A DNA stretch of 64,000 nucleotides from Constantimarinum furrinae (GTDB taxonomy: Bacteria > Bacteroidota > Bacteroidia > Flavobacteriales > Flavobacteriaceae). The notes under the pieces were generated by a model. That model did no database searches. It worked only from the letters and a program-made list of their open reading frames with translations, and was not told where the DNA came from. Positions 28,261 through 44,668 of this stretch are shown here, piece by piece. The stretch is from assembly GCF_014295415.1 (NCBI RefSeq), contig NZ_CP052909.1:434001-498000 (forward strand). Reading direction: 5' to 3'. Made by a program: the position numbers and the translations under genes. The first letter of the stretch is position 1. Each line of letters starts with the position of its first letter.

Positions 28261-28995
28261 TTACTCACATACCTTACCATACTTCTCTACCATACCTTCA
28301 GTTGCTTCTTTTAAAGTTTTTCCATTTACCGGATGTAAACCATGATATGTAAAAAATGTCACAACATTATCGGTTTTATCGTACCATAGAATTTGCTGAC
28401 CGTCTTTTTTAAATGGTGCGTTTTTACATACCTCAACCAATCTCATTTTCTCAAGCGTATTCGGTTCGCATTCACGTTCTAATTTTTTTCCACTGCAATC
28501 CGTTTCTTCCCAATGATCTTCTATCCAGAGCATACAACACTCATCACCGGTACCAAAAAAATTCCAGGACACGGAAACTCCTAAGGCAATAATCAAAAAC
28601 CATAATAAATACTTTTTAATTATACTACCCTGAGTGCCTTGATTTTGAAAATCTCGAAAATTACGGTATCCCAAATATCTAGCTAAAGAATCTCTTATTT
28701 CAAATGCTATTGTAATATCATTTCCCGCCCCAAAATTTTTTAAATAATTTGTAATTGACTTACTGGAAATTGAAATATCTGTTCTCCCCGAGACATGCTC
28801 GGCAACTCCATTCTTGCTATCTGGAGCACCTTCTTTCAGTGCTTTCATTTTAACAGCTTGGATTAGTTCTCTTTCCATAAATAATTCATTATAAGACCGT
28901 TGAAAATTACAATTTCTTTTTGGAAAGTGATTGGAAAATAAGTTTCCAAAAGCTTTCCAACTACTTTCCAACTGATCTTTAAAAAGCTTTCTCAT
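28261..28995 (-). CDS. Single-pass membrane protein with N-terminal HTH-like region
   Basis: The start at ATG 28995 (MRKLFKDQLESSWKAFGNLF) gives 244 residues; an upstream ATG at 29070 would add 25 uninformative residues. An N-terminal cytoplasmic part contains a pattern frequent in flavobacterial proteins (SISSKSITNYLKNFGA, SLARYLGYRNFRDFQN) that resembles a helix-turn-helix. One membrane helix (KYLLWFLIIALGVSVSWNFF) follows, then a short outer part with four cysteines (CCMLW, DCSGKKLERECEP) and the tail HGLHPVNGKTLKEATEGMV. No function is known. A decayed relative lies 1 kb away at 27194. Confidence 0.6.
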   Translation of the reverse strand: MRKLFKDQLESSWKAFGNLFSNHFPKRNCNFQRSYNELFMERELIQAVKMKALKEGAPDSKNGVAEHVSGRTDISISSKSITNYLKNFGAGNDITIAFEIRDSLARYLGYRNFRDFQNQGTQGSIIKKYLLWFLIIALGVSVSWNFFGTGDECCMLWIEDHWEETDCSGKKLERECEPNTLEKMRLVEVCKNAPFKKDGQQILWYDKTDNVVTFFTYHGLHPVNGKTLKEATEGMVEKYGKVCE

Positions 28996-29244
28996 ATTTG
29001 TCTTCGTATTGCTGAACGCCCTATCGTAAAAGGGAATACGACTTTCAGTTTTACATAAACGGAGCTGCAAAGTAGAGTGGCTAGACCATTTTGAGAAGTA
29101 ATCGAATCACTTTACTTCTGCACTCCACACTTCTCAAACCGAAGCGTGCACGCTTCAAAATTTCACGGTGTTGCCCGGCAACTCAATTGAACCGAACTCA
29201 ACCTCGGTGGGCCACTCCTATGTTCAATTTCAAATTTTAGAAAC

Positions 29245-29437: not shown

Positions 29438-31069
29438 ATGAAGACCATATTGTTTTTATTCCTCTTTTGTATTTCAGGTTTGTTGACTTTCGGTCAAGAA
29501 GAATCGGACAGTCTTTCTTATTATTATTATAGCATTGTAAGACCAAATGAAAAATCTAATACCCCTGCCGCAATTCGTTTTTTCAGAAAACGTAAGTACA
29601 ATAGTCTTAAAAATAATGATACACTTAATGCGATTTATGCAAGCCGAATGATTGCACAAGGTGTTTATTTTGAAGGCCATGTGTATGAAAGTGAGCAAGA
29701 AGCAGTTACTGGTCTACAATTGATAGGAGATAAGGAAGGAGAAATATATGATGAACACAGACTGGGGTTTTTTACGCAGCTGGGTATGGTGTATCGAAAT
29801 ATAAGGGATTTCAAACAAGCTATTACTATTTATGACCAAGCTTTGGCTTTAAAACCAAATCCTGATGCACATGTTATATTATTAAATAATAAAGCAAATG
29901 CCTATAAATCATTAGAGGAATTTAATAAGGCTGAGGAAATACTTTTAACAGGATTAGAGATTGTTGAGAAGATGCAAGATACCATCAAACAAGCACTCCT
30001 TTTAGATAATTTGGGAGAAGTTCAGCATCGTCTTAAAGATCCTAAAGCGCTTAATACATTACATAAAGCCCTGCGACTTCGCTTGAATTTTAAAAATCTA
30101 AAGCATCGATTCACCTCTTATATGAGTTTAGCAGATTTTTATTTAGCTACAAACTCTGACTCTTCTAACTATTATATCCAAAAGGCATTATCTACAGCCA
30201 AATCTCTTAAAAATAGTGCTTATAAGCACGAGGCATTCAATCTTTTATTGAAGGATCATGTCGATCCTGATGTTCGGGAATTTATGGCTTTGACTGATAG
30301 TATTAATACTGCTGCCCAACTTGAAGATAACAAATATGCTTATCGGAAATGGAATGTTGCCGAAGCAAAAAAGAGACAAGAGTTAGCAGAAATAGGAAGA
30401 GAATCAGAAAAAGGTAAACGTATCTTATATCAATGGATCGGACTCTTAGTGGTTGTTATAGCCATTCTTCTATTTTTCCTCTTCAGAATAAAACATAAGC
30501 GTGATCGAATAAGACAGGTGTATGAGACCGAAACACGAATTTCTAAAAAAGTACATGATGAAGTGGCGAATGACATCTACCATCTAATGAACAACCTACA
30601 ACAGCAAAAAGATGTAGACGCGCGTACTGTAGATTCGCTTGACAGCCTTTATAATAAGACGCGAGATATTTCAAAAGAGATCAGCTCTATATCCCTAGAC
30701 AAAGAATTTGACCTTGAACTAACGGATATGTTGGAAAGCTTTCAGAATGATGAAGTTAATATTATCACCCGAAATTTATCTTCCATTACGTGGTCTGATT
30801 TCAGCAAGGAAAAAAAACTGACCATCTACCGTGTATTACAGGAACTGTTGACCAATATGAAAAAGCATAGTAATGCCAGTCTGGTAGCTTTACAATTTGA
30901 ACAAAAAGGAAAAAAATGTAGAATCGAATATACCGATAACGGTAAGGGAACAGTCCTTGAAAAAGGAAATGGTATACGGAATACGGAAAACCGTATGGAT
31001 TCCATAAACGGGTCTATTAGTTTTGAATCTAGTCCGGGAAAAGGGTTCAAAGCGATAATAGCGATTTAG
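29438..31069 (+). CDS. TPR-containing sensor histidine kinase (HisKA_3/NarX type)
   Basis: This 543-residue protein has a signal peptide (MKTILFLFLFCISGLLTFGQ), a periplasmic set of TPR repeats (YDQALALKPNPDAHVILLNN, NKAEEILLTGLEIVEKM and others, residues about 95-270) and one membrane helix (YQWIGLLVVVIAILLFFLF, near 330-348). The HisKA_3 box KKVHDEVANDIYHLMNNL has its histidine near residue 373, and a short HATPase domain follows (LQELLTNMKKHSNAS, DNGKG, GNGIRNTENRM). This is the common flavobacterial TPR kinase type. The cognate regulator starts directly after its stop. Confidence 0.92.
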   Translation: MKTILFLFLFCISGLLTFGQEESDSLSYYYYSIVRPNEKSNTPAAIRFFRKRKYNSLKNNDTLNAIYASRMIAQGVYFEGHVYESEQEAVTGLQLIGDKEGEIYDEHRLGFFTQLGMVYRNIRDFKQAITIYDQALALKPNPDAHVILLNNKANAYKSLEEFNKAEEILLTGLEIVEKMQDTIKQALLLDNLGEVQHRLKDPKALNTLHKALRLRLNFKNLKHRFTSYMSLADFYLATNSDSSNYYIQKALSTAKSLKNSAYKHEAFNLLLKDHVDPDVREFMALTDSINTAAQLEDNKYAYRKWNVAEAKKRQELAEIGRESEKGKRILYQWIGLLVVVIAILLFFLFRIKHKRDRIRQVYETETRISKKVHDEVANDIYHLMNNLQQQKDVDARTVDSLDSLYNKTRDISKEISSISLDKEFDLELTDMLESFQNDEVNIITRNLSSITWSDFSKEKKLTIYRVLQELLTNMKKHSNASLVALQFEQKGKKCRIEYTDNGKGTVLEKGNGIRNTENRMDSINGSISFESSPGKGFKAIIAI

Positions 31070-31070
31070 T

Positions 31071-31736
31071 ATGTATAAAAAGGTTCTCATTTCAGATGAT
31101 CTGGATTCTATCAATCATGGAGTTGTTTCCGTTACCAATTCATTGGGAATAGCTGATGCCCATCAAGTACAATACTGCGATGATGCCTATTTGAAAATAA
31201 AAAAAGGCGTCCAAGACGAAGATCCATTTGAACTGTTAATTACCGATCTGTCCTATAAATCGGATCATAGAGCCCAAAAAATAAGTTCTGGTGAAGCACT
31301 CATTCAAGTGCTGCATAAAGAGTTCCCTGAACTTCATATCATTGTGTATTCTATCGAAGACAGAAATCAAAAAGTTCGACATCTAATGAACAGTTACAAT
31401 GTTGCGGGATTCGTGTGTAAAGGCAGACAAGGAATGGTTGAATTGGAAAAAGCTATAAAAACTACTGCAGAAGGTGGGCGGTATTTATCACCTCAAATTC
31501 AGAATGCCTTGCGTAGTTCTGAAACTATGGAGATCGATGATTATGACATTGAGCTTTTGCGTTTACTTAGTCAGGGAAAATCTCAGGATGAGATAAGTAC
31601 ACATTTTAAGGAATGGGAGATCTCTCCCAGCAGTTTAAGTTCTATAGAAAAGCGGTTAAATAAATTGCGCATCGAACTGCAGGCCAAGAACGCGATTCAA
31701 TTGGTAGCGGTCGCTAAGGATCTGGGGATCATTTAA
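31071..31736 (+). CDS. NarL-like response regulator
   Basis: This 221-residue regulator has a receiver domain with the acidic pair ISDDLD, phosphoacceptor Asp59 in LLITDLSYKSD and VCKGRQG at the lysine position. Its C-terminal DNA-binding region is IDDYDIELLRLLSQGKSQDEI... ISPSSLSSIEKRLNKLRIELQAKNAIQLVAVAKDLGII, which is LuxR-like. It is paired with the TPR kinase (one-base gap). It may bind the TTACGGATTTCCGTAA family of palindromes in this region; that link is inference. Confidence 0.9.
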   Translation: MYKKVLISDDLDSINHGVVSVTNSLGIADAHQVQYCDDAYLKIKKGVQDEDPFELLITDLSYKSDHRAQKISSGEALIQVLHKEFPELHIIVYSIEDRNQKVRHLMNSYNVAGFVCKGRQGMVELEKAIKTTAEGGRYLSPQIQNALRSSETMEIDDYDIELLRLLSQGKSQDEISTHFKEWEISPSSLSSIEKRLNKLRIELQAKNAIQLVAVAKDLGII

Positions 31737-32608: not shown

Positions 32609-32624
32609 TTACGGATTTCCGTAA
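32609..32624. promoter_or_regulatory. Perfect palindrome TTACGGATTTCCGTAA before the TerB cluster
   Basis: It has seven-base arms (TTACGGA / TCCGTAA) around TT and lies 49-64 bases before the ATG at 32673. Related elements stand at 27429, 35839 and 36985. This is a likely operator. Confidence 0.5.
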
Positions 32625-32672: not shown

Positions 32673-33065
32673 ATGGATAAATCTAGAATTAGAGCGCTAC
32701 TAATTACCGCATATTCAGATGGCTTCTTTGATAGTCGGGAACTTTATATAATTAATGAGCGAGCGAAGGACCTAGGGCTTTCTGGTGAGGATATTCTTGA
32801 ACTAATTAGAAACCCGGCACCCCAATTAATTATTTATCCAGTAACCGTCGAAGAACGAATACATTTTCTATACGACTTAATGCGTGTTATCCTCGCCGAC
32901 GGGAAAGTAGATGAAAATGAGGAGCAAATCTTTTATAAATATTTGAAGGAATTAAATTTCGACTCTACTCTATACGATGACCTATATATTTCTATGATAA
33001 AGTCAGTCAAAGCACAAGAGGATTTAGAAACATATTTTAAAAAATACTTTGAAGATGAAATTTAA
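32673..33065 (+). CDS. TerB-like protein
   Basis: This 130-residue all-helical protein has the twofold acidic pattern of TerB-like proteins: AYSDGFFDSRELYIINERAKDLGLS near the start and ILADGKVDENEEQIFYKYLKEL near residue 73, both DG-x(3-4)-E type metal-binding motifs. TerB domains are linked to tellurite and stress resistance and to membrane-tethered defence-type complexes. There is no signal peptide, so it is cytoplasmic. It overlaps the next gene by 11 bases, and with that gene and the VWA-like gene it forms a compact operon. Confidence 0.7.
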   Translation: MDKSRIRALLITAYSDGFFDSRELYIINERAKDLGLSGEDILELIRNPAPQLIIYPVTVEERIHFLYDLMRVILADGKVDENEEQIFYKYLKELNFDSTLYDDLYISMIKSVKAQEDLETYFKKYFEDEI

Positions 33066-34395
33066 TAGGAGTCAATTACTAAATTCAGATTCAAAACCCT
33101 CTATAGACAATAGTATTGTTGCCAAATTTGTTGCATCCTTTACAAAATTTGGCAGGGATTCCTCTGAGGAATGTAAAGCATCTTCAGAAATGTATACCAT
33201 ACATTTAAGACAAATTGAAAGTGGACATATTGTCAAAAAAGAAGAAGACACTCAAGAACAACGTAATGATATTTCTGAAAAAGAACAAAAAATTGATCGC
33301 ATTCAAAATGAAATAAATGATAAAACTGCAGAAATAAAACAAATTAAAGAGGAGAAGGTTAGAGATAAAGACGTGGAGATTATCAATTTAAAGAAAGAAC
33401 GCGATGATCTTGCTGCTCAGGATCCACGAGATGTAATTGATACCGGCCCCAAATTTAAACCTTGGCTTTTTTATACCGGTGTTTTTATTTCAACGCTATT
33501 AATCCTATTCATATATTATTTTTATGTTAATCTCGGCTATGTATTATTCGACCTACCAGTTGTATTTTCACCTGACATTGCTTTTACTTGTAATCCAGAA
33601 GTTTTGAATTCATTGGACCAGCTAAATGGAAACGGGGGGTGCAAAGTCGCTATTAGTATTGGACCATTATTGTTGCCGATTTTATTTCTTGCCATAGCCA
33701 TATTAATCCATTTTAAATTAGAAAACCTAATTTATGAAGAAGGAAAAAAATATAAAGCCTGGATTGGTATTTTCTTTTTTCTTGTTTTGGTATTAGGTTT
33801 GGATATTATTCTGGCTATTAAATTCGAGGAGCGATTATTTAATTGGAAAGGTGTTGGCGGTGTCTTTGGAGATCAATTTCCAACAGGATTACTTGAACAA
33901 CTAAAATATAGTTATAAAGAGCCGGCTTTCCTTTTAATTCTAGGCTTGGGTTTTGTTGGATATATTATCTGGAGTTTTATAACGCATGAAACAAGTAAAG
34001 AATACGAAAAGAAAGATCCTGAAAATCGATGGCGTAGAAAATTGAGAAGATTTGAAAAACAAATTGACAGAGTTCAAGGAGAAAAAAGTTATCTTCTGAA
34101 AAAAGCAAATCATTTATTACCTGACGAAATTAGAGAGCTTGAAAAAGAAATCGGCAGCATTAAACAATCGATTAGACTCATACGCATTGGCGGAAAGGAT
34201 AAATTAAGAAACGCGTTAATTCAATTTACAATTGGGTGGAATCAATATATTCAATTCAAATATGGTGATTCAAGTGCATCAGAAAAAATAATCATTGTAA
34301 AAAATGAGCTTAATTCATTTATAAGTTCTTCCTCTACATTACGGGACATCGACCAAGTTAAAAATGAAGAAATCACCACAATGTCTCTCAATTAA
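33055..34395 (+). CDS. Coiled-coil membrane protein of the TerB/VWA cluster
   Basis: The ATG at 33055 gives 446 residues; a TTG two codons earlier is less likely. Residues about 55-125 are a long charged coiled coil (KEQKIDRIQNEINDKTAEIK). Four membrane helices follow near 136-160, 198-220, 236-255 and 290-309 (PWLFYTGVFISTLLILFIYY; VAISIGPLLLPILFLAIAIL; WIGIFFFLVLVLGLDIILAI; FLLILGLGFVGYIIWSFI), then a second coiled coil (EIRELEKEIGSIKQSIRLIR). No family is recognised. It overlaps the TerB-like gene and ends 11 bases before the VWA-like gene, so it is likely the membrane scaffold of the trio. Confidence 0.65.
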   Translation: MKFNRSQLLNSDSKPSIDNSIVAKFVASFTKFGRDSSEECKASSEMYTIHLRQIESGHIVKKEEDTQEQRNDISEKEQKIDRIQNEINDKTAEIKQIKEEKVRDKDVEIINLKKERDDLAAQDPRDVIDTGPKFKPWLFYTGVFISTLLILFIYYFYVNLGYVLFDLPVVFSPDIAFTCNPEVLNSLDQLNGNGGCKVAISIGPLLLPILFLAIAILIHFKLENLIYEEGKKYKAWIGIFFFLVLVLGLDIILAIKFEERLFNWKGVGGVFGDQFPTGLLEQLKYSYKEPAFLLILGLGFVGYIIWSFITHETSKEYEKKDPENRWRRKLRRFEKQIDRVQGEKSYLLKKANHLLPDEIRELEKEIGSIKQSIRLIRIGGKDKLRNALIQFTIGWNQYIQFKYGDSSASEKIIIVKNELNSFISSSSTLRDIDQVKNEEITTMSLN

Positions 34396-34406
34396 ACTAA
34401 ATAAAT

Positions 34407-35315
34407 ATGAAAAAAACACTTCTTTTTCTTTTACTTTTTTCTAATTTAACCATTCGTGGCTTCGGACAAACTCCAACTCCGTCCAATTATATTATTTTCT
34501 TTGATTTTTCATCTAGAATTGAAAATCCTTATCAACCTCAAAAGGATAAAGAATTGATAAAACACCTAGTAACTAATTTTCGACAAAAAGTGGAAGGCCT
34601 GTATAAGAGTGGGTATATTTATTCTGAAGATAAACTCAACATTCTTTTTTATCCAGATTTGGATGATGAGAATATTTTGTCCTTAACAAGTTCTATGAGT
34701 ATTGATTTTGGCAGCAGAGATTTTAAGACAAGACTTAATTACTTTATAAATCAATTTCCTAAGCAGGGAACTCCAAAAATACTAACAACATTTGATAAAA
34801 TTTATGACATCGCATTAAAACAAAACCCAAATTATTTTGGTTCAAACATTTACGATTTTTTTAGTTATAGTATAGATTATTATCTAAAAGAAAACTATAA
34901 TAACCATATAATTATTTTCACAGACGGATATATGTATATGGCAGGGGAAAACCCCGAAAGAGTTGGGAATACGCTTGGACATATAGAGGGCTCAATTTTA
35001 GACCCTTTAAGATCTAGTGCAAATTGGCAAAAAGAATTTAAATTAGGTGAATGGAAAATAGTTAGTTCTGGTAATAAATTAAAAAATAAGACAACTGTCA
35101 CTCTTTTGGAGGTAACTCCAGATTGCATACAAAACTCATCGACACCGAGAACTAGACTTCGACCATTAAAACAATGCCCTAACGAGTTTAAAATACTCGA
35201 AAGATTATGGACAAATTGGTTTTTAGATATGGGCGTTGAAAATAATGATATTCAAATAATTAGAACATCAAATGATCTAAATGGAATTAAATCAGCCCTA
35301 AACCATTTATTTTGA
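34407..35315 (+). CDS. Secreted VWA-like domain protein
   Basis: This 302-residue protein has a signal peptide (residues 1-20). The strand NYIIFFDFSSRIE carries Asp33-x-Ser35, the start of a MIDAS-like site, though the third position is Arg instead of Ser. A later strand NHIIIFTDGYMYM gives the usual VWA TDG. So it is a VWA-like fold with a partly altered metal site, facing the periplasm. It ends overlapping the TTG start of the nuclease gene by four bases. VWA and TerB domains recur together in stress systems; this grouping supports a joint function but does not say which. Confidence 0.6.
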   Translation: MKKTLLFLLLFSNLTIRGFGQTPTPSNYIIFFDFSSRIENPYQPQKDKELIKHLVTNFRQKVEGLYKSGYIYSEDKLNILFYPDLDDENILSLTSSMSIDFGSRDFKTRLNYFINQFPKQGTPKILTTFDKIYDIALKQNPNYFGSNIYDFFSYSIDYYLKENYNNHIIIFTDGYMYMAGENPERVGNTLGHIEGSILDPLRSSANWQKEFKLGEWKIVSSGNKLKNKTTVTLLEVTPDCIQNSSTPRTRLRPLKQCPNEFKILERLWTNWFLDMGVENNDIQIIRTSNDLNGIKSALNHLF

Positions 35316-35818
35316 CACAAAACGTTATAATTCTATATAGAATTACTGGCCTATTCATTTTTTTTCTGTCTATATTCATTTCTATTGGTTGTCACTCTCA
35401 AACCCTTTCGGGCAAAGCCGTCTCCATCACAGACGGCGACACCTTTAAACTACTCACAACAGATTCCTCATTAGTCAGGGTTCGCCTGGCAAGCATCGAT
35501 TGCCCCGAGCGGAAGCAACCTTTTTCGCAACGAGCGAAGCAATTTACATTGGACGCTATTGCGGGTAAACAGGTAACTGTAGAACAGCAGAGCACCGACA
35601 GAAACGGCAGGATCATAGGCATTATATACTATGACAATGGCTTGATCTTAAATGAGGAACTGCTAAAAGCGGGTCTGGCATGGCACTATCTAAAATATTC
35701 TTCGGATGTAGCCCTCCAATCCCTGCAGGACACTGCAAAACGCGAGCAACTGGGGCTATGGGCAGATGCACATGCCATTCCACCTTGGGAATGGCGGAAA
35801 AACAGAAGGAAAGGGTGA
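35312..35818 (+). CDS. Thermonuclease (SNase-like) lipoprotein
   Basis: This 168-residue protein, probably from a TTG start overlapping the previous stop by four bases, has a lipoprotein signal ending ISIGC. The SNase fold shows SITDGDTFKLL, VRVRLASIDCPERKQPF and DRNGRIIGIIYYDNGLILNEELLKAGLAWHYLKYS, with the catalytic Arg, Asp and Glu positions present. It would degrade DNA or RNA on the outer face of a membrane. Translational coupling to the VWA-like gene puts it in the TerB/VWA operon, which is unusual for this nuclease family. Confidence 0.85.
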   Translation: MTQNVIILYRITGLFIFFLSIFISIGCHSQTLSGKAVSITDGDTFKLLTTDSSLVRVRLASIDCPERKQPFSQRAKQFTLDAIAGKQVTVEQQSTDRNGRIIGIIYYDNGLILNEELLKAGLAWHYLKYSSDVALQSLQDTAKREQLGLWADAHAIPPWEWRKNRRKG

Positions 35819-35838: not shown

Positions 35839-35854
35839 TTACGGGTTTCCGTAA
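35839..35854. promoter_or_regulatory. Palindrome TTACGGGTTTCCGTAA
   Basis: It differs from the copy at 32609 by one base. It lies 54-69 bases before the ATG of the small secreted protein at 35908. Confidence 0.5.
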
Positions 35855-35907: not shown

Positions 35908-36129
35908 ATGAAGCTCCCAACAATCGGCCTATTGGTCATGGTCTTTTTGGCCACTTCTTCGTTCAGTAGCTCCTTGACCGATGTCTATATCTGCAAGGGA
36001 AAATACAGCAAGAAATATCATTACAAGAAAAACTGCCGGGGTCTCTCTAACTGCTCAACAGATATCTATAAAGTTACTCTATCGGAAGCGAAAAAAATTG
36101 GGAGGTCACTTTGTGGATGGGAGGATTAA
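35908..36129 (+). CDS. Small secreted cysteine-containing protein
   Basis: This 73-residue protein has a signal peptide (about residues 1-22). The mature part VYICKGKYSKKYHYKKNCRG and LSNCSTDIYKVTLSEAKKIG, with four cysteines (C29, C44, C50, C69 by count), is a known kind of small flavobacterial protein without assigned role. It resembles the short metal- or DNA-binding 'Ada-like' Cys motif (VYICKG...YH...C.GL), but this is only a resemblance. It precedes another small secreted protein by ten bases. Confidence 0.6.
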   Translation: MKLPTIGLLVMVFLATSSFSSSLTDVYICKGKYSKKYHYKKNCRGLSNCSTDIYKVTLSEAKKIGRSLCGWED

Positions 36130-36554: not shown

Positions 36555-36974
36555 ATGTCTCAAACCCCATCAAAAAAACAACATCTTAATTACATAAAAA
36601 AGTGCGGTCCTTTTAAAATTGACTGTAACCGAATCATCTTTTCAAATGAAGAAATTGAGATTCTCGAAAAATACGGTCATTGGTTCACAGCCCTAGAAGA
36701 TGGAACACTGAAACCACTAAGTGAACGCCAAAAATTATTTATTGACGTGGCAAAGGGACTTAAAAAGCCCGTTTCTTCAGAAGAAACGGCATGGTTTAAA
36801 TATACACGGCGTAGACAAATAGAAAAGGAAAGTGGAAATAGTCTGTACAATACACCGGTACTTGAAAACAACGAGTTCTACAGCCGCCAAGATTATTTAA
36901 AACAAAAACAAATAATGCAAAAAACTAATTGGGAGAATAGCGGCAAAGCAGTGCAATTAAAATTTTTGAAATAA
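36555..36974 (+). CDS. DUF413 (MaoP-like) domain protein
   Basis: This 139-residue cytoplasmic protein has FKIDCNRIIFSNEEIEILEK then YGHWFTALEDGTLKPLSERQ and KLFIDVAKG, which fits the DUF413 pattern (F..G..F...E...L..YG..L..L..G...P....E..F). In enterobacteria one member, MaoP, helps order the Ter macrodomain; what it does in Bacteroidota is unknown. The remainder (TRRRQIEKESGN and beyond) is unrecognised. It stands directly before the first hsd operon but is separated by the palindrome at 36985. Confidence 0.6.
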   Translation: MSQTPSKKQHLNYIKKCGPFKIDCNRIIFSNEEIEILEKYGHWFTALEDGTLKPLSERQKLFIDVAKGLKKPVSSEETAWFKYTRRRQIEKESGNSLYNTPVLENNEFYSRQDYLKQKQIMQKTNWENSGKAVQLKFLK

Positions 36975-36984
36975 GTGTTCCATC

Positions 36985-37000
36985 TACGCGGTTTCCCGTA
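36985..37000. promoter_or_regulatory. Palindrome-like element TACGCGGTTTCCCGTA before hsdM
   Basis: This variant of the TTACGGATTTCCGTAA family has one extra base per arm. It ends 51 bases before the hsdM ATG at 37052, so the restriction operon may share control with the upstream accessory genes. Confidence 0.35.
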
Positions 37001-37051
37001 TTGCCAATGCCTTACGTTTCTACTATATTTACAAAAACACCTAGCTTCCCT

Positions 37052-38611
37052 ATGACCGAACAAACCCAGCAATTACAAACCCAACTCTGGAACATCGCTA
37101 ATACCCTGAGAGGCAAGATGGATGCCGACGATTTTCGGGACTATATCCTGGGGTTTATCTTCTATAAATATCTTAGCCGCAAGATGAATCTCTATGCGGA
37201 TAAGATCTTAGAGCCTGACGGATTTACCTACAAAAACATTCAAGCTCATCCAAAAAGCAGTGAATACCTCAGCGCAATTCGTGATGAAGCCTTAGACAAA
37301 TTGGGCTACTTTCTGCATCCGGATGAACTTTTTAGTGAATTGGCTCGCCGCGGCAATGCGGGAGGCAAAAATAAATTCATTCTCGACGACCTCGCCAAGG
37401 TGCTTACCAATATTGAACAAAGCACCATGGGTTCCGAAAGCGAAGATGACTTTGGTAACCTTTTTGAAGATCTGGATCTTACCAGCAGCAAACTGGGGAA
37501 GTCTGAAAACCAGAAAAACGAACTTATCGTAAAAGTGCTGTCGCATCTGGAGGAAATCGATTTCGACCTTGAAAATACCGAGAGCGACCTGCTAGGTGAT
37601 GCATACGAATACCTTATCGGACAGTTTGCCAGTGGTGCCGGCAAGAAAGCCGGGGAGTTCTATACCCCTCAACAAGTTTCTAAAGTGTTGGCGCAACTGG
37701 TCACCACCGGCAAGGAAAAACTTAAAAGCGTGTACGATCCCACCTGCGGTTCCGGCTCCTTGCTTTTACGGGTTGCAAGAGAGGTAAAGGAAGTAGGAGC
37801 GTTTTACGGGCAGGAGATGAACCCAACTACCTACAACCTCTGCCGTATGAACATGATTATGCACGATGTGCATTACAAGCGGTTCGACGTAAAGAATGAA
37901 GACACTTTAACCCATCCGCAGCATGCCGATATGCGTTTTGAGGCTATAGTTGCCAATCCGCCCTTCTCTGCCAAATGGAGTGCGAGCCCGCTTTTTATGA
38001 GTGACGACCGCTTCTCGGCCTACGGCAAACTGGCACCAAAGAGTAAAGCCGACTTCGCCTTTGTACAGCACATGATTTACCAGCTGGAGGATAACGGTAC
38101 CATGGCCTGTGTATTGCCACACGGCGTATTGTTTAGAGGAGCTGCCGAAGGACATATCCGTAAATACCTTATTAAAGAAAAAAACTATCTGGATGCGGTG
38201 ATTGGGTTACCGGCCAATATCTTTTATGGTACAAGCATACTTACCTGTATTTTAGTTTTGAAGAAAAAGCGGGAGCATACTAAGGACGTCCTGTTTATAG
38301 ACGCCAGCCAGCAGTTTGAAAAGGTAAAAACCCAGAACATACTGCGGGATGAAGACATTGAGAAGATTATAAGTACCTATCGCAACCGAACAACAGAGGA
38401 TAAGTTTAGTTATGTGGCACCATTAAGCGAGATTGCCGAAAACGACTACAACCTGAACATCCCGCGTTATGTGGATACTTTTGAAGAAGAAGAACCGGTA
38501 GATCTGGCAGCGGTTTCCAAAGAGTTAAAAGCTTTGGAAAAAGAGATAAAAGAAACCGACGCTACCATAGCCGACTATTGTAACCAACTGGGCATAGATA
38601 CGCCTTTTTAA
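37052..38611 (+). CDS. hsdM: Type I restriction-modification methyltransferase subunit HsdM
   Basis: The ATG at 37052 (MTEQTQQLQTQLWNIANTLR) gives 519 residues; longer in-frame starts lie inside the palindrome region and add nothing of the family. An N-terminal HsdM helical domain precedes an N6-adenine methylase: AdoMet motif I in YDPTCGSGSLLLRV (residue about 229) and catalytic motif IV NPPF (about 302). A C-terminal helix (LAAVSKELKALEKEIKETDA) contacts HsdS. It methylates adenine in the site read by HsdS, protecting host DNA. It is the first gene of a five-gene hsd operon. Confidence 0.97.
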   Translation: MTEQTQQLQTQLWNIANTLRGKMDADDFRDYILGFIFYKYLSRKMNLYADKILEPDGFTYKNIQAHPKSSEYLSAIRDEALDKLGYFLHPDELFSELARRGNAGGKNKFILDDLAKVLTNIEQSTMGSESEDDFGNLFEDLDLTSSKLGKSENQKNELIVKVLSHLEEIDFDLENTESDLLGDAYEYLIGQFASGAGKKAGEFYTPQQVSKVLAQLVTTGKEKLKSVYDPTCGSGSLLLRVAREVKEVGAFYGQEMNPTTYNLCRMNMIMHDVHYKRFDVKNEDTLTHPQHADMRFEAIVANPPFSAKWSASPLFMSDDRFSAYGKLAPKSKADFAFVQHMIYQLEDNGTMACVLPHGVLFRGAAEGHIRKYLIKEKNYLDAVIGLPANIFYGTSILTCILVLKKKREHTKDVLFIDASQQFEKVKTQNILRDEDIEKIISTYRNRTTEDKFSYVAPLSEIAENDYNLNIPRYVDTFEEEEPVDLAAVSKELKALEKEIKETDATIADYCNQLGIDTPF

Positions 38612-38630
38612 TAAAAATGTCACTTCGCAT

Positions 38631-38650
38631 GATTCCGATGTATCGGAATC
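38631..38650. repeat. Perfect hairpin between hsdM and hsdS
   Basis: GATTCCGA-TGTA-TCGGAATC has 8-bp arms. It lies in the 63-base gap between hsdM and hsdS, with flanking bases of the cacttcgc... type often seen in dispersed flavobacterial intergenic repeats. No T run follows, so it is not a normal terminator. Confidence 0.6.
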
Positions 38651-38674
38651 GTATCGAGAAGCACTATTAACTAA

Positions 38675-39997
38675 ATGATAAATACCACCGCTACAAATAT
38701 AGAAACCGAAAAAGAAGTTAGTAATGAGCGAAACATAAAGGTTCCGGCATTGCGATTTAATGAATTTGAGGAGATAATTGAGGAATCCTTATTTGGAAAC
38801 CATTATACGTTTCATAGTACAAATTCTCTTTCTAGAGATAAATTGAATTATAATCATGGAGAAGTTAGAAATATTCATTATGGTGATATTCATACAAAAT
38901 TTCAAACCCATTTTTACTTAGTAAAAGAACACGTTCCATTTATCAATGATGATGTTGATTTAGCAAGAATAAAGGAAGATTCATACTGTAAAGTTGGTGA
39001 TTTGGTTATAGCAGATGCCTCGGAAGATTATGCCGATATAGGAAAGTGTATCGAACTCATCGATATAAATAATGAGAGGTTATTAGCCGGACTACACACA
39101 TTTTTGGCAAGACCTTCGCAAGAAAGTACATCGCTTGGATATATGAGTTTTTTACTTAAATCATGGAAATTAAGAAGGCAGATAATGACAATTGCTCAAG
39201 GGACAAAAGTATTGAGTTTGTCTACCGGTAGAGTTTCAAAATTAAAACTTAATCTCCCCTCCCTCCCCGAACAACAAAAAATAGCCTCTTTTCTTTCTTC
39301 TGTCGATCAAAAAATACAACAACTCACCACAAAGAAAGAACTACTGGAGCAGTATAAAAAAGGGGTGATGCAAAAACTGTTTTCCCGGGAGCTACGGTTT
39401 AAGGATAAGGATGGGAAGGCGTTTCCGGAGTGGGAGGAGAAGTACTTTAAAGATATTGTTATTAAATACCGATTGGGAGGCAATTATACAAATACTGAAG
39501 AAGAAACTATTTACCCATTGATAAAAATGGGAAATCTTGGTCGAGGTACAATGAATACGAAAAAGTTAGATTATATACCGATTGATGAAGAAATAGATCC
39601 AAAAGATAAAATTCGATATGGAGATTTATTTTTCAATACTAGAAATACATTAGAATTAGTTGGAAAGGTCTCTATCTGGAGAAACGAATTACCAATTGCG
39701 TACTATAATTCAAATTTGATGTATTTGAAATTTGATGACAATTTTTTTATGAATTATAGATTGAATTCATACGAAGGAATTAAAGGATTGAAAAGATTTG
39801 CAACGGGAACTACTAGTGTAGCTGCAATTTATACCAAGGACTTACTTAAGCTAAAATTAAATATACCCTGCCTTGAAGAACAAAAAAAAATCGCTACCTA
39901 TTTGTCAAGTATCGATTCCAAAATAGAAAATGTAAATAATCAAATAACCCTAACTCAAACCTTTAAAAAAGGGTTGTTGCAGCAGATGTTTGTGTAA
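38675..39997 (+). CDS. hsdS: Type I restriction specificity subunit HsdS
   Basis: This 440-residue protein has two target-recognition domains separated by conserved helices. TRD1 covers about residues 20-190. The first conserved coiled coil is LPEQQKIASFLSSVDQKIQQ with LLEQYKKGVMQKLFS (about 195-240). TRD2 covers about 255-395, and the second coil is LEEQKKIATYLSSIDSKIEN with FKKGLLQQMFV at the end. HsdS chooses the bipartite DNA sequence for HsdM and HsdR. The TRDs are visibly more AT-rich than the conserved coil (39240-39440), as expected if TRDs are exchanged between systems. Confidence 0.95.
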   Translation: MINTTATNIETEKEVSNERNIKVPALRFNEFEEIIEESLFGNHYTFHSTNSLSRDKLNYNHGEVRNIHYGDIHTKFQTHFYLVKEHVPFINDDVDLARIKEDSYCKVGDLVIADASEDYADIGKCIELIDINNERLLAGLHTFLARPSQESTSLGYMSFLLKSWKLRRQIMTIAQGTKVLSLSTGRVSKLKLNLPSLPEQQKIASFLSSVDQKIQQLTTKKELLEQYKKGVMQKLFSRELRFKDKDGKAFPEWEEKYFKDIVIKYRLGGNYTNTEEETIYPLIKMGNLGRGTMNTKKLDYIPIDEEIDPKDKIRYGDLFFNTRNTLELVGKVSIWRNELPIAYYNSNLMYLKFDDNFFMNYRLNSYEGIKGLKRFATGTTSVAAIYTKDLLKLKLNIPCLEEQKKIATYLSSIDSKIENVNNQITLTQTFKKGLLQQMFV

Positions 39998-40008
39998 ATT
40001 ATTAGATT

Positions 40009-41181
40009 ATGACGGATGAGTTACTAAAAATAAAGTCCATAGAGGAATTAGTCCTGCAACTAAATACTCAAAGGCAAGTTGGTAACAAACTTGTTGGGCA
40101 ATTAGAACATCTGGATATTGATTTTGACATTAATCTTCCTTTGGCGAAACAAACGGTTAAAAATCGATTACCGGCCGCAAGTAGTAATGATTTTGTTTTT
40201 CTTAATTGTCGATTTACAAAAACTGTAACTTTCAAAAGCAGCCATATTAATTTCTATTTTCTAAATTGTACTTTTCATGATATAAATGCTAATGACAAAG
40301 AGTTTATCGGCAAAGTCAGATTCCGAGAATGTGAATTTAAGTCGGAAGTTCTATTAGATAATGCCTCTTTTCGTGAATTGGTGGATTTCTGGCATTCAAA
40401 ATTTTATAAGAAAACGATATTTCACAAAGTAGATTTTGACAAAACCGTTGTCTTTTCGGGATCCACGTTTTATGAAAATGTGCTATTTACCTACACTCTG
40501 TTCGCAAAATTAGGAATATTTAGAGGTACTGTTTGTAAAAAAGGTTATGATATTTCCCTTGCGATATTAGAAGGTAACCTTTCGATGTTTGACTTTGAAT
40601 TGAAAGATTTTGATGTTGTTATGGGACCTTTAGAGGAAATGGAGTATGAATCTTTAGTTCATGACAAAGGAGATATTCCGATTAAAAATAAACGTGAAAC
40701 ATTTAGAATTCTTAAAAACATATTTGAGAAGAATTCGGACCATATAATTTCTCTGTATTACCGCCGTCTAGAATTGAGTACTTACGATGTTTTACTGAAG
40801 GATAAAATCAATCAGAAGATTAAGCCATGGACTAACAGATTAAACAGAGCAATCCTATGGTTAAATTATAATTCCAATATACATGGCACAAGTTTTTTTC
40901 GCGGTTTAATTTTTACTGGTTGTATAGGGTGGCTGTTTTTTTACTTTTCTTTAATCGCAACATCAGACTACTATATGACATTTAATCCTTGCAACTGGTC
41001 GTTAAAAGCCCTAACCGATTCTTTGAAATATTATTTTATCTCGATATCTCCAGTGCATAAACATACTTATATGGATGAGCTAGGACCGACATGGTCATTT
41101 TATCTTGCCGATTTCATGGGACGAATTTTCGTCTCCTACGGAATCTATCAAACGGTGCAGGCTTTTAGAAAATTTAGATGA
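40009..41181 (+). CDS. Pentapeptide-repeat-like protein with C-terminal membrane helices, inside hsd operon
   Basis: This 390-residue protein has, at residues about 55-200, a run of pentapeptide-like turns (FVFLNCRFTKTVTF, FYFLNCTFHDI, VRFRECEFKSEVLLDNASF, TVVFSGSTFYENVLF) that should form a right-handed beta-helix. A linker follows, then at least two hydrophobic segments (FFRGLIFTGCIGWLFFYFSL near 302-322, and the final FYLADFMGRIFVSYGIYQTV). The C-terminus resembles the helix pair of small ion channels. It starts 11 bases after hsdS and ends three bases before the next gene, so it belongs to the operon. Its role is unknown; a membrane effector or sensor tied to the restriction complex is an inference. 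Confidence 0.65.
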   Translation: MTDELLKIKSIEELVLQLNTQRQVGNKLVGQLEHLDIDFDINLPLAKQTVKNRLPAASSNDFVFLNCRFTKTVTFKSSHINFYFLNCTFHDINANDKEFIGKVRFRECEFKSEVLLDNASFRELVDFWHSKFYKKTIFHKVDFDKTVVFSGSTFYENVLFTYTLFAKLGIFRGTVCKKGYDISLAILEGNLSMFDFELKDFDVVMGPLEEMEYESLVHDKGDIPIKNKRETFRILKNIFEKNSDHIISLYYRRLELSTYDVLLKDKINQKIKPWTNRLNRAILWLNYNSNIHGTSFFRGLIFTGCIGWLFFYFSLIATSDYYMTFNPCNWSLKALTDSLKYYFISISPVHKHTYMDELGPTWSFYLADFMGRIFVSYGIYQTVQAFRKFR

Positions 41182-41184
41182 AAT

Positions 41185-41745
41185 ATGAAGGAGTTAATAA
41201 ATGGACAGACAATAGATTTTGATCTTCACAAAGCCGGTGATGGCAGTGCTACTAGTATTGATGGTTTGCACATGCATAAAAGAATGAATGGAAAAAGGTT
41301 TAAAGGTATTGATGTCCTTTTTCCATTAGATGAAAAAGAGGATGTGGTTTTTAGACCTTCTAAGACGCATAATTTATTAAGAAGACAATTATTAAATGAA
41401 GTTAGGCGAGCAGTAAGCAAAGACAAGTCCAAAAGGCAATACCTTGTTGATACTATTGTTGATGAAATAAGCAGATATACAGGTTATATGCCCCAGGTTA
41501 ATCAAGTAGAATCTATAAAACGAGGAGCCGAAAGAATTGCAAAAATCTTTTCTAAGAACACAAAAATCGAAGAAGAAATGAAACAACAAATTCGCTCAAG
41601 ATTGGATTTTTATGTAACAAAACATGAAAATGAGGATAAATCTTCATTTTATGTAAAGCAAGATTTTTTGCGAAATCGCATTAAAATAAGTGATGATTTG
41701 GAATCACTTTTTAAGGGTAACGAGAAAAGAAAAGTCGATAGATGA
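41185..41745 (+). CDS. Unknown protein encoded between hsdS and hsdR
   Basis: This 186-residue soluble protein has no signal peptide or membrane helix. The N-terminal 60 residues look beta-rich (INGQTIDFDLHKAGDGSATS, GIDVLFPLDEKEDVVFRPSK). The rest is basic and helical (NLLRRQLLNEVRRAVSKDKS, SIKRGAERIAKIFSKNTKIE). No family is recognised. Its stop overlaps the hsdR ATG by four bases (ATGA), so its translation is coupled to HsdR. It could be an accessory factor of the R subunit or the soluble partner of the upstream pentapeptide membrane protein. Confidence 0.6.
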   Translation: MKELINGQTIDFDLHKAGDGSATSIDGLHMHKRMNGKRFKGIDVLFPLDEKEDVVFRPSKTHNLLRRQLLNEVRRAVSKDKSKRQYLVDTIVDEISRYTGYMPQVNQVESIKRGAERIAKIFSKNTKIEEEMKQQIRSRLDFYVTKHENEDKSSFYVKQDFLRNRIKISDDLESLFKGNEKRKVDR

Positions 41746-44615
41746 AAGCCCATGAACCCGAAGCCATACTAGAGAATAATTTAATCCGGCAACTCGAGAG
41801 CCTGGGTTTTGCACCTGTGAAAGTGCAGGATAGGGATGCGCTTTTGCACAATCTTAAAGGTCAGTTAGAAGCCTTCAACAAGGCAACCTATTCAGCAAAT
41901 GAGTTCGATGCCATCCTCAATCATTTGGCCAAAGGCAATGTTTTTGAAAAGGCCAAGACCTTAAAAGATCGCTTTAGTTTTACCCGGCAAAATGGGGATA
42001 CGGTCTATGTGCGTTTTTTTAATACTGAAAGCTGGAATGAGAATTTGTTTCAGGTAACCCATCAAATCGCACAGGAAGGATCCTACAAAAACCGTTACGA
42101 TATCACTCTCTTAATAAACGGTCTGCCATTGGTACAAATTGAATTAAAGCGCCGCGGACTTGAGATAAAAGAAGCATTTAACCAAATTAATCGGTACCAA
42201 AAACATTCCTTTTGGAGCAATCATGGTCTCTTTCAATACGTGCAATTATTTGTGATAAGCAATGGGGTAAACACCAAATATTTGGCCAATAACCGCCGGC
42301 AATCTGTAAAACAGACTTTTTATTGGGCAGACGAGCACAACAAAAACATTCGGGAACTCCCGGATTTTGCAGAGGCCTTTCTAAATCCTGATCATCTGGG
42401 AAAAATGATATCCAACTATATTGTTCATAACGAAACCCATAAAATTTTAATGGTGTTACGTCCCTACCAGTACTATGCTGTAGAAAATATTGTACGACAG
42501 GTGGCGGAACGAAATGAGAACGGCTATATCTGGCATACTACCGGTTCGGGGAAGACCTTGACCTCCTTTAAGGCGAGTCAGATAGCGATGGACCTCCCCA
42601 ATGTGTTTAAGGTAGTTTTTGTGGTGGACCGAAAGGATTTGGACTATCAGACCATGAACGAGTTTAACAGCTTTAAGAAGGATAGCGTAGATGTAACCGA
42701 TAACACGCGCTCCCTGGTTAGACAATTGACCGATGATACCAAGTTGGTGCTTACCACGATACAAAAGCTAAATAATGCCATTAGCAAAGCACGGTACGAG
42801 AAGAACTTAACTCATCTTCAGGATAAAAAAGTGATTTTTATTTTCGATGAGTGTCATCGATCACAGTTTGGAGATACCCATAAACGCATCACCGAGTATT
42901 TTCAGAAGGCACAGTTATTTGGATTTACGGGTACGCCCATTTTTGCTGAGAACGCTTCAAAAAATGATTTGGGAAAACGAACCACCAAAGATCTCTTCGG
43001 TAAATGTCTCCATAAATACGTCATCACCGACGCCATTAGAGATCAGAATGTCTTAAAATTCGGAATCGAGTACATCGGGAAATACAAACGAAAGAGTAAC
43101 ACCTTCGTAGATATTGAAGTGGAAGATATCGATAAAGCGGAAGTTTACAGAGATCCCAAAAGACTGGAGAAGATAGTGGATTACATACTAGCCTATCACA
43201 ATCAAAAGACTTTTTCAAGGGATTACTCCGCCTTGTTTGCAGTAAATAATATTGATACCCTTATTGCCTATTACGACATCTTGCAACGCAAAAAAGAAGC
43301 GGGGGAGCACGACTTACGTATCGCCACGATTTTTACTTTTGGCGTAAATGAGGAAGACGAAGACGCGCAAGATTATATTCCGGGAGATACCGTTCAGGAA
43401 GCCGCAGAACCGGGAGTGAAGTATATCTCGAGTCATACGCGAGATAAACTGGACTCATATATTAGTGATTATAACAAAATGTATCAGACCAGTTTTTCAA
43501 CTAAGGATGGCCAGCAATTTGAAAACTATTTTAAAGACATCAGTAAGCGCTTAAAGGATCGTGAAAAGGAATCCTTTAATGAGGAAAAAGACCGTCTGGA
43601 TATCGTATTGGTGGTCAATATGATGCTTACCGGTTTCGATGCAAAAAAGGTGAATACGCTCTATGTAGATAAAAATCTAAAGCATCACGGTTTAATCCAG
43701 GCATACTCACGAACCAACAGAATCCTGGGTGAGAAGAAATCGCAGGGAAATATTTTGTGTTTCAGAAATTTGAAAAAGGCCACCGATGATGCCATCGCTT
43801 TGTTTTCTAATAAGGATGCAATTGAAGATATTTTTATACCGCCCTATGAGGTAATCACTAAAAAATTTGATGAAGCCTTGGCGAGTGTGCTAAAAATCAC
43901 TCCGAATTATCAGTATGTTGATGACCTACTAAGCGAAGAAGATGAACTGGCCTTTGTGCAGGCATTCAGAAGTTTACTGCGAGCGAAGAATGTTTTGGAA
44001 TCTTACGTCGATTTTGATTGGGACGATTTGGAAATTGACGAACAAACCTTCGAAAATTATAAAAGTAAATATCTGGATTTATATGACAAGGTGAAGAATG
44101 ACAATCAGAAGCACAAGGATTCCATTCTTGATGATATCGATTTTGAGGTGGAATTGATACATAGGGATCAGATTAACGTTGCTTATATTTTAAAGCTGCT
44201 GGCTAAGATGAAGCAGGGTACCGAATCTGAACGGGAAAAGCAGAAGAAGGCAATCAAGGAATTACTGAGCGGCGAAATAGAATTGCGCAGTAAGCGTGAA
44301 TTAATAGAAAAGTTTATTGAAGAAAACCTGCCACATATAGTGGATCCGGATGATATACCGGACGAATTTGAAAAGTACTGGCAGGAGCAGAAAGTACTGG
44401 CATTAGCAAAACTCTGTGAAGAAGAAAATCTAGACAAACAGCAGTTCAGTGGTTTGGTAGAAGCATATATTTACACTACTCAGGAACCCCTGCGAGATGA
44501 TGTTTTTAAATGTCTTGACAACCGACCTAGTGTTTTAAAAGTACGTGAAATAGGTGAGCGTATTATAAACAAGATGAAGGAGTTTGTTGAGGTATTTGTA
44601 AGGGGGGTTGGATAA
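41742..44615 (+). CDS. hsdR: Type I restriction endonuclease/translocase subunit HsdR
   Basis: This 957-residue protein has an N-terminal HSDR_N nuclease domain with the PD-(D/E)xK set YDITLL and VQIELKRRG (residues about 118-137). A superfamily 2 motor follows: Walker A HTTGSGKTL (about 265), DECH in FIFDECHRSQFG (about 368), FTGTPIF and later RTNRILG. The C-terminal helical region (about 700-957) contacts HsdM/HsdS. It pulls unmethylated DNA and cuts it. All catalytic residues seem intact, so this system is probably active. The gene after it, mcrB, starts 53 bases on. Confidence 0.97.
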   Translation: MKAHEPEAILENNLIRQLESLGFAPVKVQDRDALLHNLKGQLEAFNKATYSANEFDAILNHLAKGNVFEKAKTLKDRFSFTRQNGDTVYVRFFNTESWNENLFQVTHQIAQEGSYKNRYDITLLINGLPLVQIELKRRGLEIKEAFNQINRYQKHSFWSNHGLFQYVQLFVISNGVNTKYLANNRRQSVKQTFYWADEHNKNIRELPDFAEAFLNPDHLGKMISNYIVHNETHKILMVLRPYQYYAVENIVRQVAERNENGYIWHTTGSGKTLTSFKASQIAMDLPNVFKVVFVVDRKDLDYQTMNEFNSFKKDSVDVTDNTRSLVRQLTDDTKLVLTTIQKLNNAISKARYEKNLTHLQDKKVIFIFDECHRSQFGDTHKRITEYFQKAQLFGFTGTPIFAENASKNDLGKRTTKDLFGKCLHKYVITDAIRDQNVLKFGIEYIGKYKRKSNTFVDIEVEDIDKAEVYRDPKRLEKIVDYILAYHNQKTFSRDYSALFAVNNIDTLIAYYDILQRKKEAGEHDLRIATIFTFGVNEEDEDAQDYIPGDTVQEAAEPGVKYISSHTRDKLDSYISDYNKMYQTSFSTKDGQQFENYFKDISKRLKDREKESFNEEKDRLDIVLVVNMMLTGFDAKKVNTLYVDKNLKHHGLIQAYSRTNRILGEKKSQGNILCFRNLKKATDDAIALFSNKDAIEDIFIPPYEVITKKFDEALASVLKITPNYQYVDDLLSEEDELAFVQAFRSLLRAKNVLESYVDFDWDDLEIDEQTFENYKSKYLDLYDKVKNDNQKHKDSILDDIDFEVELIHRDQINVAYILKLLAKMKQGTESEREKQKKAIKELLSGEIELRSKRELIEKFIEENLPHIVDPDDIPDEFEKYWQEQKVLALAKLCEEENLDKQQFSGLVEAYIYTTQEPLRDDVFKCLDNRPSVLKVREIGERIINKMKEFVEVFVRGVG

Positions 44616-44668
44616 AATCGATTGATTAAGGATAACCGCAATGTTAAATCGAATTTGATTAATACTTT

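Follow-up and report, generated by a model that had tools for sequence, protein, structure and literature searches.

The stretch of DNA analysed here (the window) is 64,000 nucleotides from the flavobacterium Constantimarinum furrinae (NCBI RefSeq assembly GCF_014295415.1, contig NZ_CP052909.1, positions 434,001 to 498,000 of the forward strand). It carries adjoining genes for a TerB-like cytosolic protein, a four-helix membrane protein (TM) and an exported protein that resembles von Willebrand factor A domains (VWA-like). TerB–TM–VWA is a recurring three-gene cassette in Bacteroidota, and homologous TM–VWA pairs are found beside CRISPR (clustered regularly interspaced short palindromic repeats) genes and with a PLD domain fused to TM. 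We put the probability at roughly 0.5 that the cassette is an immune module that acts on the envelope and takes exchangeable cytosolic inputs.

The TerB–TM–VWA cassette and its products

Across the 55 distinct TM loci examined, window included, the VWA-like gene lies within 700 bases after TM in 53 (in L125 with one small gene between). In the other two, TM and VWA are either fused, as a single protein of 704 residues on a Runella plasmid, or cut by the end of the contig (L126). A TerB gene is found within 300 bases before TM in 41 of the 55 loci, and in 40 of these it is partnered by both TM and VWA, the VWA place of L126 being beyond the contig end. Since these places are kept in 41 and 53 of 55 loci, the arrangement is not due to chance.

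The loci come from genome samples that overlap: 397 genomes of the family searched with a single sequence (26 matches), 395 of the phylum searched with a profile (21 matches), 395 of the class (15 matches, one dropped as low-complexity), 98 and 119 from other classes (2 and 3 matches) and four from a third class (1 match). Repeat matches on the window or on genomes already included were left uncounted. The family count is a lower bound, at least 26 of 397, as the single-sequence search missed the cassette in L148. L128 (G1077) was dropped as a low-complexity match with stops, and L005 duplicates L032. The contig of L126 ends within TM and that of L004 within VWA, and the TerB open reading frame (ORF) of L088 is short, at 79 residues. 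Three scans of viral_contigs gave no relative, nor did a phage search with the VWA-like protein of L048; of four plasmid searches, one was without a match and three returned the Runella record only, one of them having been queried by the Runella protein itself.

In the window, four ORFs on the + strand span positions 32673–35818, joined by an 11-base overlap (33055–33065), an 11-base gap (34396–34406) and a 4-base overlap (35312–35315). The gene calls are the longest non-overlapping ORFs picked by a script, not by a trained caller, and such distances depend on the start codon chosen. These coordinates bear out the tight four-gene operon described in the initial annotation of this DNA, which had been made from the sequence alone. 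Its description of the first two products stands as well. The first gene (32673–33065) encodes a cytosolic protein of 130 residues that matches PF05099 with 35 bits against a curated cut-off of 24.4 (E = 2e-8); DjlA is a weak NCBIfam relative, far below its own cut-off. The second (33055–34395, 446 residues from an ATG) encodes TM, which was described as a four-helix membrane protein with coiled coils. It has four hydrophobic segments (residues 138–156, 200–218, 237–255 and 291–309), and in the structure model these are flanked by long, confident helices at residues 67–121 on the N-terminal side and 322–378 and 381–425 on the C-terminal side, which may be read as coiled coils. Four membrane crossings would therefore put both helical ends on one side of the membrane, taken to be the cytosol. 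The TM model has a mean predicted local distance difference test score (pLDDT) of 64, and a fold search with it gave nothing useful. Neither TM nor the VWA-like protein has a family over cut-off in Pfam or NCBIfam. The PADLOC matches of TM are weak and fall on the coiled-coil stretch (Cmr5, 1.4e-3; JetC, 0.046), and the VWA-like protein has none. Known families were rejected for TM, the matches being weak and mostly on coiled coils.

The third gene (34407–35315) encodes the VWA-like protein of 302 residues. None of 26 members matches any VWA family in Pfam at E ≤ 1. The AlphaFold2 model is of low confidence (mean pLDDT 47). A Foldseek search with it often lists VWA domains, but no match reaches E ≤ 1e-3. 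VIA-align comparison of this low-confidence model gave Z scores of up to 10.0 with chains that we take to be mostly VWA or I domains. The designation as VWA-like, taken over from the initial annotation, thus draws on the VIA-align result and finds no counterpart in Pfam or among significant Foldseek matches; a VWA-like nature is supported, not proven. The altered metal-ion-dependent adhesion site (MIDAS) noted earlier is a feature of all copies. It reads DFSSR in the window, all 26 aligned members have its D, S and R, and DxSxR replaces the canonical DxSxS in all 53 separate VWA-like genes and in the Runella fusion. DxSxR is a signature of the family. Profile comparison of the family with a VWA-domain protein of L033 was also tried and set aside, as just 12 columns align, around a TDG motif.

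The fourth gene (35312–35818, TTG start) encodes an SNase-family nuclease of 168 residues with a signal-like start, as judged by eye; it matches PF00565 with 88.1 bits against a curated cut-off of 21 (E = 6.6e-25). It had been called an SNase lipoprotein. The family assignment holds, but it is uncertain whether the protein is a lipoprotein, since the Cys that comes after the hydrophobic stretch in the window protein is missing from the L005 relative. The nuclease had further been proposed to act on the outer side under the control of an inner sensor, so that the four genes would form one barrier to DNA entry, with the outer SNase cutting incoming DNA. The 4-base overlap between the VWA-like and SNase genes in the window would fit such a barrier, as would the SNase genes that adjoin VWA in 8 of the 41 TerB loci and in one PLD-type locus (L127), and the genes for EEP, a second nuclease family (identified by PF03372 for one member), found in the stretch in nine other TerB loci and never together with SNase. 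However, SNase was not seen beside TM–VWA in 46 of the 55 loci, two of which (L004 and L126) end before that place, and SNase or EEP genes also occur in 4 of 19 loci that lack the cassette, near the sensor histidine kinase (HK) and response regulator (RR) genes discussed below. A four-gene system with SNase at its core was rejected on these grounds, and the DNA-entry barrier is very improbable. The linkage proposed initially is retained for VWA and fails for SNase, adjacent in only 9 of 55 loci, and the coupling of an outer nuclease to an inner sensor does not hold as a general design. SNase is better read as hotspot cargo and an optional neighbour.

Small proteins with DUF4236 (here with an Excalibur domain) and DUF6804 recur around the cassette, as in L044 (7640–8155 and 10803–11174).

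TM–VWA pairs beside CRISPR genes or with a fused PLD domain

Eleven TM–VWA loci have neither TerB nor PLD, and six of these adjoin CRISPR genes, mostly type III-linked. L091 has a Csx20 gene over its cut-off, L089 a Csx20-like gene below it, and L090 a Csx3-like gene whose match just exceeds the Pfam cut-off but not that of NCBIfam. In L092, a ring nuclease (Cas_NE0113) and a Card1-like CARF nuclease are encoded, and the contig carries Cas10 15 kb farther along, in what by eye is a csm operon with a reverse-transcriptase–Cas1 fusion. L095 is annotated as a III-B locus. In L125, Cas1, a type B PrimPol and Cas2 directly follow VWA, and the Cas10 of that genome is on another contig; a sigma-54 regulator is encoded upstream, and RtcR is one of the families that it matches below cut-off. 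L090 (435–2996) and L118 (1–2870) have a common three-gene set beside TM–VWA, with a sigma-70-like match below cut-off in L118. L091 (10700–13528) has three genes of similar size, whose kinship to this set is not shown.

A different partner is seen in three loci in which TM is joined to a PLD-type nuclease-like domain, each with a VWA-like gene behind and none with a TerB gene. In L094 (9086–10972), TM has an N-terminal fusion to a PLDc_2 domain (3.2e-23); the L116 protein (2614–4512) is 75% identical to the L094 protein, and that of L127 (1848–3842) matches the PLD-type nuclease NucT below cut-off. An HSDR_N-like gene, recognised by its own profile, stands before the fused gene in L094 and L127.

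The proteins of these contexts are homologous. With profiles built from disjoint sets, the window-type TM aligns with the CRISPR-linked and other TM proteins along most of its length (E = 6.8e-35), as does the window-type VWA with its counterparts (E = 9.4e-36), and the PLD-fused TM matches the CRISPR-linked and other TM set at E = 1.9e-30. In a tree of 54 TM sequences, the CRISPR-linked copies are scattered, with four changes needed, three of them forced by well-supported branches, and the TerB copies form two groups.

In single-sequence searches, none of the 41 TerB loci had a ring nuclease or CARF gene, or any csm or cmr gene. The CRISPR protein queries were taken from positive loci, which match by construction. 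The same searches did find a WYL-like gene in one TerB locus, L126, and Cas1-like genes in two others, L045 (12071–19927) and L050 (195–3338), where nearby ORFs are Cas2- and Cas9-like by eye. Cas10 is encoded in 6 of 10 genomes with TM–VWA only and in one of three PLD genomes; in the L117 genome, both Cas10 genes are far from TM–VWA. The background is 17 of 119 genomes in the class of G405, or 15 of 116 without its three TM–VWA genomes. Fisher tests for Cas10 in the TM–VWA-only genomes gave 1e-4 against the TerB genomes and 0.0015 against 15 of 116, in tests that ignore kinship.

Several points weigh against an immune module with exchangeable inputs. Five of the eleven TM–VWA-only loci (L033, L093, L117, L118 and L124) have no CRISPR gene in the stretch; the stretches of L090 and L118 are under 6 kb. 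L089, L090 and L095 rest on Csx20 or Csx3 matches below or barely over cut-off, and the CRISPR genes of L125 are not type III-specific. Cas10 occurs in just 1 of 39 TerB genomes; the window genome has no Cas10 match, and the window copy was not found to be part of a type III locus. No CARF or SAVED family of Pfam appeared for 11 TM members (among the best 25 of 78 matches) or 26 VWA members (21 matches), which leaves room for a diverged sensor. Finally, the TM tree has long branches that leave its deep order unsure, and it is compatible with a single origin of the TerB copies.

TM–VWA at CRISPR loci might instead serve spacer acquisition or be a passenger, and the TerB version would then be an unrelated complex for envelope maintenance. 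The pair directly precedes cas1, PrimPol and cas2 in L125 and is close to them in L095, and transmembrane proteins have been linked with CRISPR adaptation modules, according to the accessible part of PMC10910872. However, the CRISPR genes identified in L089, L090 and L091 belong to ring nuclease families and are not adaptation genes, and the TM–VWA pair is conserved as a unit across contexts. We regard this explanation as quite unlikely.

The two-component hotspot and its palindromic box

Upstream of the window cassette are genes for a sensor histidine kinase with TPR repeats (HK, 29438–31069, + strand; TPR matches over cut-off, HATPase_c at 25.7 bits against 26.4) and a response regulator (RR, 31071–31736, + strand), the candidate regulator of the cassette. 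The Response_reg match of RR is below cut-off, as are its NCBIfam matches to RcsB, UhpA, NarP and like regulators; we judge it to be of the LuxR/NarL type. Of the 41 TerB loci, 36 have both genes in the stretch; of the 14 loci without TerB, one does. RR relatives (E ≤ 1e-35) are nevertheless present in 73 of 199 family genomes. Of the RR loci in genomes that had given no TM match in the single-sequence search, the twenty highest on the list were examined (G193 being passed over), and just one of them, L148, held the cassette. HK–RR as a dedicated partner of the cassette was rejected for this reason.

The pair rather marks a hotspot. Its upstream edge in the window is c3 (28261–29070, - strand), a probable membrane protein by eye (own c3 profile, 8e-44), which is present in 21 of 25 family loci and in the stretch in 16 of the 20 HK–RR loci. 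Neighbours in these 20 include HsdM (3), SNase (2; L145 and L147), EEP (2), P239 (4) and c8 (3). The last two are found in the window as well: P239 (31801–32520, + strand) has a signal-like start by eye and is without a Pfam match, and c8 (35908–36129, + strand; own c8 profile, 1e-40) is a small protein whose start is likewise signal-like by eye. Together with SNase, both count as additional cargo of the hotspot. A PADLOC scan of nine large proteins chosen from the HK–RR loci found type I restriction enzymes in L132 and L144, a QatA/PifA-like match in L132 and a PDC-M43B match in L136; five of the nine had no match at E ≤ 1e-5. In the window, HsdM, HsdS and a type I restriction subunit follow the cassette. 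The hotspot, in which restriction genes are frequent, thus carries the cassette as one of many cargoes. The suggestion, made at the outset, of a membrane complex related to defence gained support from these restriction systems around the window copy and from the CRISPR neighbours of TM–VWA. The type I system of the window (HsdM, HsdS and HsdR; 36555–48779) is preceded by a DUF413 gene and followed by one that resembles type II restriction genes.

The association with HK–RR also bears on the direction of signalling. In an outside-in scheme, the exported VWA-like protein would sense envelope damage or phage adsorption and report through TM to TerB, leading to a stress response and not to cell killing. 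VWA domains bind ligands, a two-component pair accompanies most TerB loci, and DjlA is the weak relative of the TerB-like protein mentioned above, all of which would suit this scheme. However, HK–RR occurs in many loci without the cassette and is therefore not its dedicated output, and relatives of TM–VWA are in or beside type III CRISPR loci. At type III CRISPR loci the alarm arises in the cytosol, and outward signalling is favoured for that reason. The outside-in scheme is rather unlikely.

The hotspot is further distinguished by a palindromic box, TACGGN4CCGTA. TACGGNTTTCCGTA has three copies in the window against 0.05 expected, one mismatch being allowed, and all three exact TACGGNTTTCCGTA matches of the 3-Mb genome are within this locus, with none for the backward-read control. 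The window holds no further copy of TACGGN4CCGTA. The first copy (30982–30995) is within HK, 76 bp before RR; the second (TACGGATTTCCGTA, 32610–32623), a proposed operator, is 50 bp before TerB; and the third (TACGGGTTTCCGTA, 35840–35853) is 55 bp before c8 and overlaps a terminator-like hairpin. The boxes as plain terminators were rejected: this last copy, after SNase, has a T-run, but the TerB-side copy has none after it, and copies recur within HK genes, 67–99 bp before RR.

In 60 hotspot loci, a gap of 4 between the half-sites occurs 80 times, in 41 of the 60, whereas none of the other gaps between 0 and 12 is seen more than three times; 20 other loci (0.32 Mb, against 1.13 Mb for the hotspot loci) have two TACGGN4CCGTA sites. 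Of 82 sites with a gap of 4 or 5, 17 are 43–61 bp before a gene with its own profile. Exact TACGGNTTTCCGTA is present in 29 of 39 genomes with TerB; it is also present in 17 of the 20 RR-positive genomes chosen, but among RR-negative genomes in only 1 of 19. The 59 TerB and RR-positive genomes together have 108 exact sites, whereas the backward-read control has 22; in the 19 RR-negative genomes the numbers are 1 and 3. The exact box is inside HK in 19 of 56 loci with an HK gene. In this exact form, it is common and not universal. Two observations on the box weigh against the module proposed below: many exact boxes in other genomes are away from it, and the exact box is within 3.5 kb upstream of TerB in just 21 of 40 TerB loci. 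Because of the location and symmetry of the box and its co-occurrence with RR, we infer that RR binds it as a putative operator, and the box is a candidate operator of a defence regulon.

Proteins from 20 stretches with distal boxes include NACHT, ThsB-type TIR, Schlafen AlbA_2, T5orf172 and integrase proteins; ten proteins picked by eye were scanned (nine near distal boxes, one from the window), a choice that gives no rate. In L154 (4304, 6693 and 8412), genes with AAA_16, DUF4041/T5orf172 and Schlafen AlbA_2 are consecutive, with a box 131–137 bp before each, as if the three cargo genes were separate cassettes. In L163 (4970–5814), a ThsB-type TIR gene has a box 50 bp ahead of it and is followed by a gene for a small protein, probably of the membrane; the two resemble a defence pair that is controlled in the same way.

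A proposed mechanism and its place among known systems

In the module that we propose, TM, with its coiled coils in the cytosol, and its exported VWA-like partner would form a transmembrane core, with TerB on the cytosolic side as input or regulator; homologous cores would take other inputs, from a fused PLD domain or a type III CRISPR system. To judge from the sequences, the order would run from cytosolic input through coiled coils and four helices to the exported VWA. A cytosolic signal of infection would reach the coiled coils via TerB, or via CRISPR signalling in the relatives, and would alter the assembly in the membrane and the VWA partner, so that the envelope is breached or blocked and phage spread is stopped. 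TACGGN4CCGTA boxes are probably the sites through which the HK–RR pair sets expression; SNase would be an optional extra.

A broader reading, which we offer tentatively as a possibility, is that TM–VWA is an exchangeable envelope effector adopted independently by different immune sensors: type III CRISPR systems in several lineages, TerB in Flavobacteriales and related Bacteroidota, and a fused PLD nuclease-like domain. A cytosolic alarm would be passed outward through the inner membrane to the exported VWA-like protein, and in Flavobacteriaceae expression would be wired, via the TACGGN4CCGTA boxes, to a two-component system governing the whole defence hotspot. If so, TM–VWA would, to our knowledge, be the first effector in immunity known to have an exported subunit of its own. 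Type III CRISPR signalling would gain an effector pair and a connection to a TerB cassette that is free of CRISPR, which would offer a way into the role of TerB in immunity. With the proposed box as a search motif, more cargo of such hotspots could be found in Bacteroidota.

A literature search found no TerB–TM–VWA system named in the titles or the opening parts of abstracts of the papers listed. The TerY-P triad consists of a VWA protein, a phosphatase and a Ser/Thr kinase and recurs with restriction systems (PMC11090510, in the part available). The cassette shares with it a VWA-like domain and Ter-linked biology, but the VWA-like protein here is exported and carries DxSxR, and no Ser/Thr kinase or phosphatase is among the ten window genes scanned, the kinase there being a histidine kinase. 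Shango comprises TerB, a helicase and an ATPase, encoded by three genes in a chromosomal defence hotspot (PMC10250203, as far as its available text goes). A TerB-like protein, three genes and a hotspot setting are common to both; the window cassette, however, has neither helicase nor ATPase, and an exported VWA-like protein is not described for Shango in that text.

The FLSHclust survey reported vWA and transmembrane genes near CRISPR loci (UAS-7, 87, 91, 100 and others; PMC10910872, in its accessible part). These vWA-related systems with transmembrane proteins resemble TM–VWA when compared by description alone, and the descriptions available there make no mention of TerB or hotspots. Some of these clusters may be the same pair as TM–VWA, and the CRISPR-linked branch may be partly known because of that report. 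Among type III systems, to which the pair would contribute an effector, there are loci with a ring nuclease and without a known effector, of which 31 cases are given in the available portion of PMC12409355.

A further parallel is with the type III CRISPR membrane effectors. TM and VWA differ from these in having no recognised CARF, SAVED or REC domain and in the exported VWA-like partner, and the window cassette is not with CRISPR. Cam1, Csx23, Cam2 and Cap1 combine a helical transmembrane part with a sensing part (PMC11229360, in the text available), and the envelope effect of the module is proposed by analogy with Cam1, Csx23 and Cam2. Like these effectors, some relatives of TM are membrane proteins encoded with type III loci.

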